From Cyanobacterium sp. HL-69 (lineage in GTDB: Bacteria; Cyanobacteriota; Cyanobacteriia; Cyanobacteriales; Cyanobacteriaceae): 64,000 nucleotides of DNA. Every line of letters begins with the position of its first letter. The stretch's first letter is position 1. The notes beneath the pieces were generated by a model. It did not search any database. It was not told the origin of the DNA and worked only from the letters and a program-made list of their open reading frames with translations. The position numbers and the translations under genes were made by a program. Of the stretch, positions 14,814 to 29,530 are shown in pieces. Location of the stretch: contig CP024912.1 in NCBI GenBank assembly GCA_002813895.1, positions 2,480,001-2,544,000 of the forward strand. Reading direction: 5' to 3'.

Positions 14814-15077
14814 ATGATTATTGCTGATACAGGTTTTTTCATTGCATTAGGAAACAATAACGATAATTTTCATCAAATAGCGAGACAAAAACTAACAACA
14901 CTCACAGAAAAGTTAGTCATTACCTATCCTGTAATAGTAGAAACAAGCTATTTGCTATTGGAAAGACAGAATCAACAAGTTCAATTTAACTTTTTGACTC
15001 AGTTGACAAAAGGCAGTATTGATATTTTTCATTTATCCCTTTTTTGTCACTTTCCGAAAAGAGGAATAAAAATGTAG
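14814..15077 (+). pseudogene. PIN-domain (VapC-like) toxin truncated by an IS701-type element
   Basis: The first 76 or so codons are intact: MIIADTGFFIALGNN holds the first PIN-domain acidic residue (Asp5), and VIVETSYLLLE holds a second near residue 43. The element's left inverted repeat starts at 15042. The frame then runs into element sequence and stops at 15077, so the C-terminal acidic residues of the nuclease site are missing. The missing 3' half is not found beside either IS701 end in this window. The product should be inactive. Confidence 0.75.
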
Positions 15078-15109
15078 AATAATAATAAAAATTAAAGGTA
15101 CTCACAGCA

Positions 15110-15898
15110 ATGGATGTAGCTCAGCAAATTAGAAAACATTTACCTAGAAATCCCATGGACACGGTGCCGGTCATTGATGATTATTGTTCTGCCTACTCTA
15201 CCTTGTTTTTTGATGTGCGTAACTACGAATATTTTAAATATTTACACTTAGGATTAATTTCTGATATTAAAAGAAAATCTCTTCCTGAAATTTCTCGCAT
15301 CGTTAATGTTTCTTCTCAAAGTTTACATCATTTTCTCACTTGTGCTGATTGGAATTTATGGGAATTAGAAAAAACTCGTTTGCACTCAATCTTAAATGTT
15401 TTTATTAATATTCCTATTACAATTATTATTGATGAAACAGGAGACCGTAAAAAGCGGTGCGACCCCGCGTCGGCGAAAGACGCAAGGGAACGCGCACCAA
15501 GATAAGGAAATACTACGGATTATATATCTCGACAATATCTAGGAAATGTAGGAAAAATAGATCAAGGTATTGTCTCAGTTAATGTTTATGGTCTTTATGA
15601 AAATATTACCTTCCCTTTAATGACCAGAATTTTCAAGGCAAAAAAGACTCTAAAAGAGGGTGATATTTACAAAACAAAGATTGAATTAGCAGAGGAAATG
15701 ATACTTTACTTATTAGAATTTGATTTCTCAATTAAATTAGTATTAGCTGATAGTTTATATGGGGAAGCATCGTCTTTAATTAAGACATTAACAGAAAATA
15801 ATCTTGATTTTATTGTTAGCATTAGAGAGAATCATGGGGTTTGGATGCCTAGCTCACAGACAGTAAGAGCAAATAAATGGTGCAAATTTAAAAGAGTA
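15110..15898 (+). pseudogene. IS701-type transposase, 5' part, interrupted by a 51-nt stop-bearing insert
   Basis: A DDE transposase frame starting ATG at 15110. It reaches the first catalytic-Asp motif IDETGDRKK at about codon 110, where a GC-rich 51-nt insert ends in TAA. The frame then resumes without shift (GNTTDY, then LADSLYGEAS, which should hold the second acidic residue) until the IS630 junction. The last third is missing. The call IS701 rests on the IDETGDRKKGK-TDY pattern and is reasonably firm. Confidence 0.75.
15455..15505 (+). repeat. 51-nt GC-rich hairpin insert, copy 1
   Basis: Exactly 51 bases (33 G/C, 65%) inside an AT-rich transposase gene, identical to 28441-28491. Outer stem GGTGCG/CGCACC encloses CCC/GGG and GCGTC/GACGC with a GGCGAAA loop. 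As codons it reads 16 residues (starting RCDPASAKDARE) and then TAA, and the host frame resumes directly after it. See findings. Confidence 0.9.
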
Positions 15899-15973
15899 TA
15901 GTCACTTTATTTAAGTATGAACCAATCAAGGGTAAAATAATGGATGAAGTAATTATTTTTATATTTAAGTATA

Positions 15974-16288
15974 ATGCCCCATGATATAGAATTAAGACAA
16001 AAAGTAATTGACTATGTAGAAAATAGAGGTAACGTAACAAAAGCATCGAGAATATTTGGAATATCAAGAGCATCAATATATAGATGGTTGAATAGAAAAG
16101 ATTTAAGACCAACAGTGGTCAAAACTCGTCAAAGAAAATTAGATAAATCAGCACTATATGAAGATGTAGTGAAAAATCCAGATGATAAATTAATAGATAG
16201 AGCGAAAAAATTTGGAGTAACAATGTCAGCAATATCTCATGCATTCAAAAAAATGAACATAACAAGAAAAAAAACAGTTACGTTATAG
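15974..16288 (+). CDS. IS630-type transposase, N-terminal frame (copy 1)
   Basis: Encodes the DNA-binding half of the transposase (104 residues). It opens MPHDIELRQKVIDYV and holds a helix-turn-helix in NVTKASRIFGISRASIYRWL. It ends just after a run of eight A bases, where expression of the full transposase would need a frame change into the catalytic half downstream. The second copy has nine A bases at the same place. Confidence 0.8.
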   Translation: MPHDIELRQKVIDYVENRGNVTKASRIFGISRASIYRWLNRKDLRPTVVKTRQRKLDKSALYEDVVKNPDDKLIDRAKKFGVTMSAISHAFKKMNITRKKTVTL

Positions 16289-16820
16289 AGAAAGAAATAG
16301 AAAACAAAGAATAGAATACTTACAAAAATTAAGAGAATTAGTCAAAAAATACGGAAGTAAGAGTATGGTATTTATTGATGAGTAAGGATTTGAGGAAATA
16401 AGTACTTGCATTTATGGGTGGTCAAAAAAAGGAAAAAAAATTTATGATGAGAAACAAGGAAAACGAGGAAAAAGAGAAAATTTAGTAGCAGGAAGAAGAA
16501 AGAAAGAAAAAGATTTTATTGCTCCAATGATCTTTACAGGAAGTTTAAATGCAGAAAGTGTTGAATCATGGCTAAAAATGTATTTATTACCATCACTAAA
16601 ACAATTTTCAATACTAATAATGGATAATGCACCAATCCACCGAAAAAATATGATAAAAGAATTAGTAGAAGAAGCAGGTCATCTAGTAATGTTTTTACCA
16701 ACTTATTCACCAGATTTAAATGATATTGAACACGATTTTAGTGCTTTAAAAAGAGCAAAAATGTATAGCGATAGTACAATAACTTTAGATGAAATAATTT
16801 ATAATTATTGTACTAGCTAA
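16289..16820 (+). pseudogene. IS630-type transposase, catalytic frame with internal stop (copy 1)
   Basis: The catalytic half contains VFIDE (first Asp), LIMDNAPIHRK (second Asp) and YSPDLNDIEHDFSALK (Glu), a DDE/DDD-like triad. The codon after VFIDE is TAA at 16383-16385; the other copy has TCA (serine) there. This copy therefore has a point nonsense mutation in addition to the frame split. Confidence 0.8.
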
Positions 16821-16849
16821 ATGTCTCAGTCTTATTTTGATTGACTATA

Positions 16850-16951
16850 ACTACCATTACTCGTCTGGGTGAAAAATTATATCTAAATTGTGTAACATCC
16901 CCTTTTTCAGGGAAGAAAAAGACTAAGGCAAAAATTGAAGTCAACGATTAA
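16850..16951 (+). pseudogene. C-terminal remnant of a gene cut by the IS630-type element
   Basis: Thirty-three codons run from the IS630 junction to a TAA: TTITRLGEKLYLNCVTSP, then a lysine-rich end closing KIEVND. The sequence looks like a genuine protein end, but I do not recognise the family. It lies 49 bases upstream of ftrC. The N-terminal part is not found in the window. Confidence 0.4.
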
Positions 16952-26286: not shown

Positions 26287-26362
26287 ATTTTAGATTGCAC
26301 GGGTTAAGGGTAATAAAAGGGAAGTTCAACTATCATAGTCAATCAAAATAAGACTGAGACAT

Positions 26363-26698
26363 TTAGCTAGTACAATAATTATAAATTATTTCATCTAAAG
26401 TTATTGTACTATCGCTATACATTTTTGCTCTTTTTAAAGCACTAAAATCGTGTTCAATATCATTTAAATCTGGTGAATAAGTTGGTAAAAACATTACTAG
26501 ATGACCTGCTTCTTCTACTAATTCTTTTATCATATTTTTTCGGTGGATTGGTGCATTATCCATTATTAGTATTGAAAATTGTTTTAGTGATGGTAATAAA
26601 TACATTTTTAGCCATGATTCAAAACTTTCTGCATTTAAACTTCCTGTAAAGATCATTGGAGCAATAAAATCTTTTTCTTTCTTTCTTCTTCCTGCTAC
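26363..26698 (-). pseudogene. IS630-type transposase catalytic part, distal piece (copy 2)
   Basis: Carries IFTGSLNAESFESWLKMY, LIMDNAPIHRK and YSPDLNDIEHDFSALK, the last two catalytic acidic segments. It is cut from its upstream part by the IS5-type element at 26701-27548. It is almost identical to copy 1; one visible change is phenylalanine for valine after NAES. Confidence 0.8.
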
Positions 26699-26710
26699 TA
26701 GGGCGTGTCA

Positions 26711-27477: not shown

Positions 27478-27550
27478 ATCCTCACTTTTGGCACAATTAC
27501 TATCATCCTTATTCTATCTGTTATTCTCTTCTATTTGATGACACGCCCTA

Positions 27551-27752
27551 AATTTTCTCTTTTTCCTCGTTTCTCGCCATAAATTTTTTTTCCTTTTTTT
27601 GACCACCCATAAATGCAAGTACTTATTTCCTCAAATCCTGACTCATCAATAAATACCATACTCTTACTTCCGTATTTTTTGACTAATTCTCTTAATTTTT
27701 GTAAGTATTCTATTCTTTGTTTTCTATTTCTTTCTCTATAACGTAACTGTTT
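27551..27752 (-). pseudogene. IS630-type transposase catalytic part, proximal piece (copy 2)
   Basis: Encodes KQLRYRERNRKQ and SMVFIDESGFEE. The first catalytic aspartate is followed by serine (TCA), where copy 1 has TAA. The frame is open up to the IS5-type element, so the damage in this copy is the insertion alone. Confidence 0.75.
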
Positions 27753-28051
27753 TTTTTTCTTGTTATGTTCATTTTTTTGAATGCATGAGATATTGCTGAC
27801 ATTGTTACTCCAAATTTTTTCGCTCTATCTATTAATTTATCATCTGGATTTTTCACTACATCTTCATATAGTGCTGATTTATCTAATTTTCTTTGACGAG
27901 TTTTGACCACTGTTGGTCTTAAATCTTTTCTATTCAACCATCTATATATTGATGCTCTTGATATTCCAAATATTCTCGATGCTTTTGTTACGTTACCTCT
28001 ATTTTCTACATAGTCAATTACTTTTTGTTTTAATTCTATATCATGGGGCAT
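27710..28051 (-). CDS. IS630-type transposase, N-terminal frame (copy 2)
   Basis: 113 residues, nearly identical to copy 1 over the helix-turn-helix half (NVTKASRIFGISRASIYRWL). The A-run is nine bases rather than eight, so the zero-frame end differs (NSYVIEKEIENKE). A -1 slip on this run would fuse it to the catalytic frame, as described for other IS630 elements. Confidence 0.8.
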   Translation of the reverse strand: MPHDIELKQKVIDYVENRGNVTKASRIFGISRASIYRWLNRKDLRPTVVKTRQRKLDKSALYEDVVKNPDDKLIDRAKKFGVTMSAISHAFKKMNITRKKNSYVIEKEIENKE

Positions 28052-28128
28052 TATACTTAAATATAAAAATAATTACTTCATCCATTATTTTACCCTTGAT
28101 TGGTTCATACTTAAGTAAAGTGACTATA

Positions 28129-29472
28129 CCTCGAAATCCCACAGAAACAGTTCCTCTGATTGATAACTATTGTTCGTTTTATCGTTCTTTATTTTCCGAT
28201 GTGCGTAATTATGAATATTTTAAATATTTACACTTAGGATTAATTTCAACACTCAAAAGAAAATCTTTGCCAGAAATAAGTGAAATTGTTAATGTTTCCT
28301 CTCAAGGTTTACATCATTTTTTGACAAAATCTAATTGGAATTCATCAGACTTGGAAAAAGTACGTTTAAAATATATTTTAAGTATACTGATTGATACACC
28401 GATTACAGTAATCATTGATGAAACAGGAGATCGTAAAAAGCGGTGCGACCCCGCGTCGGCGAAAGACGCAAGGGAACGCGCACCAAGATAAGGAAATAAC
28501 ACAGATTATACTTCTCGACAATATTTGGGAAGCTTAGGGAAAATAGATCAAGGTATTATAGTATCAGTAAATGTTTATGGTCTTTATAGAAATATTACTT
28601 TCCCTTTAGTGACAAGAATATTCAAACCAAAAAAGACTCTCAAAGAGGGTGATGTTTACAAAACAAAAATAGAATTAGCAAGAGAAATTATCGAGTATTT
28701 AGTAGAGTTAGGTTTTTCTATTAATTTAGTATTAGCTGATAGTTTATATGGGGAAGCATCGACTTTAATTAATGCACTGAGACAAAATAATCTTGATTTT
28801 ATTGTCTCTATTAGAAAAGACCATGGTGTTTGGATGCCAAGTTCACAGACGATAAGAGCGAATAAATGGTACAAATTTAAACGAATTTTTAGTGATGGTA
28901 AAAAAGAAGATAGATACATTAGAGAAATTATTTATGGTCTCAGAAGAGAAATAACTTATTGGCAAATTACTACTAACACAGAAACTATGCCAGAAAACAG
29001 CACTAGTTTTGTAATGACTAACATCCAAAAAACGAGAACTCAACAGAAAAAAACCATGGGAAATTTATATGGTCAACGTACATGGGTAGAGTATGGATTT
29101 CGGCAGTGTAAACAAGAATTAGGCTGGACAGATTATCGTTTAACCAAGGGAGAAGATATAGAAAAATGGTGGGAAATTATTAATAGTGTTTACTGGATGA
29201 TTAGCTTAAAAACTAAACCTATTACAGACTTAATTAATCAAAAAAAAATAGTAGAGACTCAAGATAAGAAAATCTTCATCACAGAAGATTGGCGTGATTT
29301 TAGTAGTTGGAAAAATACATTGATTAACTATCGAATTATGGTTAAACCAATGCTCATCTTTTGCACAATGTTACCTTGGTTAAGAATAATGGAGAGCGAT
29401 TTATTATGGATAGGGTTTAATCATTTACTGAACCACAGCAATAATTGTATGATTCATTTTCTCAGTGGATAA
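28129..29472 (+). pseudogene. IS701-type transposase lacking its start, with a 51-nt stop-bearing insert
   Basis: Reads from the equivalent of codon 12 (PRNPTETVPLIDNY) through IDETGDRKK. After the insert at 28441-28491, whose last codon is TAA, it resumes in frame with GNNTDY. It then continues open for 327 codons to 29472, through LADSLYGEAS and QRTWVEYGFRQCKQELGWTDY, which carries the late catalytic glutamate region. No other stop or frameshift is seen after the insert. It has no start codon context because of the IS630 copy. Confidence 0.75.
28441..28491 (+). repeat. 51-nt GC-rich hairpin insert, copy 2
   Basis: Base-for-base identical to 15455-15505 and at the same codon boundary (after the second lysine of DRKK), although the flanking transposase sequences differ at many positions. 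It folds into one long interrupted hairpin whose 3' foot carries the TAA stop. Confidence 0.9.
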
Positions 29473-29530
29473 ATTCATTTTTTCCGATTAGTTATTTCGG
29501 AAAGTGACAAAAGAAGGATAATCCTTCTAG

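Follow-up and report, generated by a model that had tools for sequence, protein, structure and literature searches.

Two diverged IS701-type transposase genes in the 64,000-nt stretch of Cyanobacterium sp. HL-69 DNA analyzed here (the window) carry the same 51-nt hairpin at the same codon, and the reading best supported by sequence comparison is that this insert belongs to a 51-nt repeat family that is dispersed, and apparently mobile, among cyanobacteria. We consider it probable that the family is a mobile hairpin which persists in genes as an open 17-residue insert, and that the IS701 pair reflects the recent arrival of a variant with T at position 50.

The insert and its IS701 hosts in the window

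As an earlier note had described, 15455-15505 and 28441-28491 are identical and directly follow the codons for DRKK. The insert comprises 17 codons, reads in frame as RCDPASAKDARERAPR before a terminal TAA, and leaves the downstream frame intact. Judged from relatives, the element borders lie one base earlier (Table 1), which splits the second Lys codon as AA^A and still gives a net insertion of 51 nt; the reported length stands, and the reported start shifts by that base. The downstream frame of copy 1 has the 131 codons first counted, and that of copy 2 has 326 codons plus a stop instead of 327. The latter encodes DDE_Tnp_1 and DDE_5 domains (scanned part 28525-29472). The flanks had been judged by eye to differ at about one base in five, and the measured figure is 98 of 456 aligned positions (21%), taken by comparing the full copies L012 and L017, one per IS701 family, rather than the window copies themselves. 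The closest mismatches between these two lie nine bases from the insert on either side, leaving eight identical bases at each flank.

Table 1. Features of the two IS701 copies and their inserts in the window
Feature	Position	Strand	Evidence
51-nt hairpin element, copy 1	15454..15504	+	covariance model R1, 77.7 bits, E 8.8e-20
51-nt hairpin element, copy 2	28440..28490	+	covariance model R1, 77.7 bits, E 8.8e-20
IS701 copy 1 (family A), from left inverted repeat to cut by IS630-like element	15034..15899	+	
Copy 1 transposase gene, 5' part: 131 codons and the TAA closing the insert	15110..15505	+	
Copy 1 downstream open frame, 131 codons and stop	15506..15901	+	
IS701 copy 2 (family B), truncated 5' by an IS630-like element	28126..29520	+	
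IS701 copy 2 right inverted repeat	29497-29520		
Copy 2 downstream open frame, 326 codons and stop	28492..29472	+	

The hairpin proposed in the earlier note is recovered by RNA folding at -23 kcal/mol (z = -2.9, 2 of 200 shuffles equally good), and folding as DNA gives z = -1.4 with 20 of 200 shuffles equally good. The alignment of relatives described below supports the hairpin much more strongly than does this single sequence. When the window was scanned with the covariance model, the next-best match after both copies reached only E 1.8. Against Rfam, the segment 15000-17400 had six matches at E ≤ 10, all under their gathering scores; the lone match within the insert on the same strand, BSnc150, was rejected at 18.6 bits against a gathering score of 73.

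IS701 copy 1 begins at 15034 with the left end TATCCCTTTTTTGTCACTTTCCGA, shared by other family A copies, and an IS630-like match starts at 15900, right after it. One IS630-like element in fact interrupts both window copies, its segments at 15900-16850, 26335-26700 and 27548-28125 being 97-99.7% identical. It cuts the 3' side of copy 1, lies reversed and itself split at the 5' side of copy 2, and carries HTH_Tnp_IS630 within 15974-16285. On the other side of copy 1, a PIN-domain gene at 14814-15033 (PF01850, 23.6 bits, exactly the cut-off) ends abruptly where the IS701 begins, at 15034.

The 51-nt hairpin family

Relatives of the insert are present in many other cyanobacterial genomes, in unrelated contexts. 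When 388 genomes of the class were searched with a 72-mer, 17 had a match at E ≤ 1e-6, the window's own included; at E ≤ 1 the number rises to 144 genomes, the weaker matches being mostly chance. These matches fall in IS605 TnpB, IS630 and IS1 genes as well as in intergenic DNA. A sequence pattern run over 84,980 species genomes found at least 117 stretches, and the 80 listed are all cyanobacterial, from Okeania, Xenococcus, Pleurocapsa, Baaleninema, Spirulina, Crocosphaera and other genera. With the covariance model, copies were detected in 24 of 100 genomes of the order, the richest being G422 and G436 with at least 59 and at least 60 matches, respectively (59 candidates scored in each). None of fourteen family mates of HL-69 has a copy within three mismatches, and one of them (G013) yields a single copy by more sensitive searches. 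The exact 22-nt core was absent from viral contigs; eight plasmid records have partial or diverged matches, six of them from Stanieria or Chondrocystis. Among the loci examined, the exact core occurs outside HL-69 at two, L142 and L181, which end in AAGAGA and AAGACA. The dispersal makes the first option of the earlier note, a small mobile repeat that entered each copy recently, the best supported, and its term "site-specific" holds no further than a target preference. We recognized no published description of this family in the literature searched, a scope that leaves aside the small dispersed repeats (SDR) compiled by Elhai et al. in 2008, and four element strings searched in paper text led to no apparently relevant paper.

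The length is 51 nt in all 90 flank-distinct copies, as counted with a pattern that fixes both ends and leaves 14-28 nt free inside; 52-nt variants occur in other searches. The elements begin with GCG and end with AAGA[GC]A, termini seen also without the end-fixing pattern. They fold into an outer stem of 6 bp, inner stems of 3 and 5 bp, and a loop of 7 nt. In an alignment of 25 diverse copies, 98.9% of stem cells are paired and 35 cells are changed on both sides, compared with 6.8 in shuffles, of which 0 of 500 score as high. Two-sided changes are present at five of the 14 stem pairs, and because the collecting pattern fixed most inner columns, the covariation support comes from four outer pairs and one inner pair. 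The alignment (A2) was chosen for diversity from pattern hits; 28 rows were picked and three excluded, one with another inner hairpin and two resembling halves of two nested copies. On the + strand, 69 distinct sequences show 25 G·T wobbles versus 3 A·C, 21 of the 25 at one pair (element pair 17-27), which hints that the + strand is the folded strand.

Insertion occurs mostly between A and a purine, with no target-site duplication. Of the 90 copies, 73 follow a host A and 15 a T, and 64 precede a host G and 16 an A; within genes, the element often sits in A-rich Lys-Lys stretches. In heptamer arrays the period of 7 runs on across the element (by eye; e.g. L105, L121, L159, L163, L186), and copies nest inside other copies at CGCAA^GGGAACGC (by eye; L126, L138, L145). 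When the element of L218 is excised, five of six comparisons with P450 homologues from G205 and G450 are gapless and one has gaps beside the site. A CobN-like orthologue likewise shows no gap at the junction after excision, L219 gives a one-base gap adjoining the junction, and both comparisons for L232, where the element is nested in another palindrome, are gapped. Several other empty-site alignments fell short of the junction or were ragged nearby. The target-site duplication expected of a MITE or IS remnant is missing from the gapless P450 sites and from the heptamer arrays, whose period is kept.

At L224 and L232 around 1000, a CobN-like and a chorismate-binding gene of G422, the 51-mer lies within another palindrome, about TGTAGGGGCGTTTCGCGAAACGCCCCTACA, that is itself in frame. 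In the G205 relative of L224, another kind of palindrome occupies the place of the nested element.

Many copies lie in protein genes. At 41 of 140 distinct sites, representing 38 distinct contexts, a frame of at least 150 codons runs across the junction once the element is removed by script. The pattern accepts 51 nt only, so that being "in frame" follows from length, and the tests are openness, phase and orientation. The element is open in the host frame at 37 of the 41 sites, where 24.5 would be expected if element types were distributed as at the remaining 99. The 41 sites are not independent of one another, since one IS can contribute several, and some of their frames look spurious (e.g. 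L109, L111, L115, L166). Among coding copies in sense phase 2, 17 of 19 are open versus 24 of 99 non-coding copies (Fisher 1.1e-7; 15 of 17 by distinct context), and sense phase 2 together with antisense phase 0 accounts for 30 of 41 copies against 13.1 expected from the target profile, in counts that may include chance frames. The HL-69 copies were excluded from the openness and phase counts, as they were from the comparison with IS701 relatives.

The unbroken host frames include an NRPS of 1655 aa and a P450 of 498 aa with two elements, one P450 of another genome having the element at the same place. They also include a CobN/Mg-chelatase protein whose 1339-aa frame contains the element (one of three in G422), a PKS piece, a chorismate-binding enzyme and an N6 methylase. 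In an IscB-type protein (L153:6935-7999; RRXRR and HNH domains), the element's 17 residues separate the two cysteines of a C-A-Y-C motif. Ten more frames that were scanned proved to be nine TnpB and one IS1. In the family at large, the insert is probably translated as a tolerated 17-residue peptide. The open frames of the gene copies fit such an insert, whereas bypassing or splicing would not demand openness.

Arrival in IS701 and alternative explanations

The insert is not confined to the two window copies. The HL-69 genome (3,296,945 bases) contains 12 copies of its 43-nt core with at most three mismatches, and the covariance model at E ≤ 0.01 returns the same number and none further, with no source copy found outside IS701. 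All 12 occupy the same IS701 codon, five in family A and seven in family B, and all end in TAA, so the window copies are not open in frame. No stop-free copy was found in this genome, and none of its 23 IS701 protein matches lacks the insert at the site, two short matches ending before it. One internal deletion is common to five B copies and another to three A copies, and their flanks differ, indicating that IS701 copies moved with the insert on board. Copies of A and B adjoin at one place, L010.

IS701 relatives occur in 91 of 368 genomes of the order at E ≤ 1e-60, the window's own included, and those outside HL-69 are at most 64% identical among the matches listed. Bases were inspected in three of these (L025, L026, L028), which lack the insert and read GAT(AGA)AAAAAAGGTAAT, compared with GATCGTAAAAA[51]AGGAAAT in the window.

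Within the IS701 families, 4 of 102 insert sites vary compared with 3 of 1151 sites elsewhere in the IS, a count that omits the columns lying far downstream in family A (333 of 565 variable), where unrelated inserted or flanking DNA was being compared, and in the upstream part also L009 (A) and L014 and L015 (B), which are cut or different there. All four varying insert sites represent loss of G or C, and the A and B consensus sequences differ at 0 of 51 insert positions. Because the insert is more variable than the surrounding IS, the identity between A and B points to recent arrival rather than constraint; on these counts, the insert is young in this genome.

The stop itself appears to be incidental. 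At element position 50, 54 of the 90 copies have G, 34 have C, and A and T occur once each; T at this position makes the last codon TAA in the window's frame; the stop is thus a one-base variant outside the family design. The earlier note had singled out both the length divisible by three and the terminal stop; the first turns out to be a trait of the whole family and the second a variant of this lineage.

Occupation of one codon in two hosts has parallels. In TnpB genes with flanks 26-43% apart, inserts at GKK^GYP differ at 2 of 51 positions, and two such lineages coexist in G192 (L206, L208). At five IS630 loci the element lies in the same Lys-Lys stretch, the base not always identical, with differing stem types and inserts that differ at 1 to 13 of 51 positions. 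Two P450 genes have the insertion at a common place, their inserts differing at 5 of 51. Such same-place inserts in diverged hosts suggest that some sites are hit repeatedly or are shared through conversion.

These observations suggest the following course of events. A 51-nt hairpin would enter between A and a purine, leaving no target-site duplication. Being 51 nt long and stop-free in most frames, it can sit in a gene as a 17-residue peptide, and the gene copies that persist would be those open in the host frame. The same codon of both IS701 families would have been reached recently, either because one variant inserted twice or because a single insertion was followed by gene conversion, after which the IS701 copies bearing the element would have multiplied. 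The T at position 50 creates the TAA, so that the transposases would be truncated; these copies may have been moved in trans by a lost transposase absent from the assembly, which is a guess, and readthrough is possible. More tentatively, and with the balance of our judgement somewhat against it, the hairpin could be mobile as a unit in its own right, and perhaps the smallest such unit known inside protein genes. It would use a duplication-free mechanism based on RNA or single-stranded DNA, choose an A-rich purine target, return repeatedly to the same Lys-Lys codons in transposase lineages that are unrelated, and leave a 17-residue module behind.

For the step that placed the element in both families, gene conversion of a single insertion between A and B, compatible with the course just outlined, has close to an even chance against two separate insertions. 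Both families have the T at position 50 that is so rare among relatives (1 of 90) and the same loop, their copies are neighbours at L010, eight identical bases lie on each side of the insert, and this genome offers no alternative source copy. The flanking identity is short, however, and falls within the conserved DRKK-GN stretch, and inserts at one site in hosts diverged by 26-43% are found elsewhere, including the two TnpB lineages of G192. Descent from a common ancestor of A and B, with the insert held identical by constraint, would also account for the shared codon and the identical consensus, yet it is hard to credit given that the insert is the more variable part within families, and that the sites at L025, L026 and L028 are empty, the matches listed outside HL-69 being at most 64% identical. 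As to the mode of movement, a REP/RAYT-type element, in which single-stranded DNA is moved by a Y1 (HUH) transposase, shares with our family a short palindrome, the lack of target duplication and a favored 5' flank, and Y1 genes are present in 13 of 18 genomes examined. We nevertheless regard it as unlikely: the ends show neither the GTAG nor the CGTC tag described in PMC3733652, G205 has six copies and no Y1 match at 1e-5, and G036, with nine Y1 matches, lacks any copy at E ≤ 0.01.

The earlier note had also raised an old insert conserved for programmed bypassing or RNA removal, and this option is unsupported in view of the openness of related gene copies, the mismatched bypass codons and the variability of the insert relative to its IS. 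In bypassing, ribosomes would skip the 51 nt with its stop as a conserved regulatory gap and make full-length transposase. The 50-nt gap in gene 60 of phage T4, described in PMC5009743 as a block of about 50 nt with hairpins within the gene, is indeed similar in length and hairpin; this and the Magnusiomyces mitochondrial inserts are likewise short blocks inside genes, and all 12 IS copies multiplied despite the stop, no stop-free copy having been found in HL-69. But the take-off and landing codons do not match (AAG precedes the gap, TAA precedes the resume codon), the stop closes the gap instead of adjoining take-off, related coding sites are open in 37 of 41 cases and need no bypass, and the insert is unconstrained in HL-69, which together make bypassing most improbable. 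A -1 frameshift, with an A-rich slip before the hairpin, was dropped since the reading frame is the same on both sides of the insert. Excision of the hairpin from mRNA, as a minute intron-like element, appears just as remote as bypassing. The split C-A-Y-C cysteines of L153 would hardly be harmless in a protein, and the excess of G·T over A·C wobbles looks as if RNA were folded, though 21 of the 25 are at one pair; against this, phase and stops should not matter to an excised element, yet coding copies avoid stops and favor two frames. To our knowledge, 51 nt is also far below the size of self-splicing introns.

Known systems and related repeats

The closest parallels are the Rickettsia palindromic elements (RPE) and the in-frame copies of NEMIS and ERIC, which are described in PMC2229807 as small palindromic repeats with open frames, found in frame within conserved protein genes; the same source reports one RPE-bearing enzyme as translated and active. 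By analogy, the 51-nt family would behave like these repeats while differing in size and host. It is a dispersed palindrome (12 copies in HL-69 and the many in G422 and G436) with a covarying stem, and it is open and in frame in genes, although the window copies are not. RPE proper are 105-146 bp long and belong to Rickettsia, whereas the present family is cyanobacterial and inserts precisely without duplication, a distinction drawn by description. REP and REPIN with RAYT are, according to PMC3733652, short dispersed palindromes, some within genes and some in cyanobacteria. The 51-nt family differs from them in lacking the tag and a consistent link to Y1. The SDR of Nostoc (Elhai et al. 2008) are reportedly 21-27 nt long, nested and inserted in heptamer arrays. 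They are thus very small cyanobacterial repeats with the same nesting and array habit, set apart from our family by described size. PMC2884548 gives the SDR as about 20 bp.

The family offers a mobile repeat of less than 100 nt with defined ends, empty sites, a covarying fold, frame statistics and recurrent targets, in hosts that can be cultured and sequenced. The recurrent targets and copy-rich complete genomes would make the movement of such tiny repeats testable. For annotation, RCDPAS..ARERAPR or SLGARSLA..AGSHR blocks in cyanobacterial proteins likely derive from the 51-nt repeat, and a stop within such a block is by itself no pointer to recoding.

Hairpins of related build were also encountered. 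L075, in the N6 methylase gene, keeps the outer stem of the family but encloses another inner hairpin of equal length, as if the element were modular. Sister types (e.g. L088, L141, L147, L158, L167 and L169) have the inner GACCCCGCG..AGGGAA hairpin in common and differ in their ends (ACGAGCG..GCGAGT and others) and flanks, some of them lying in TnpB-like contexts.
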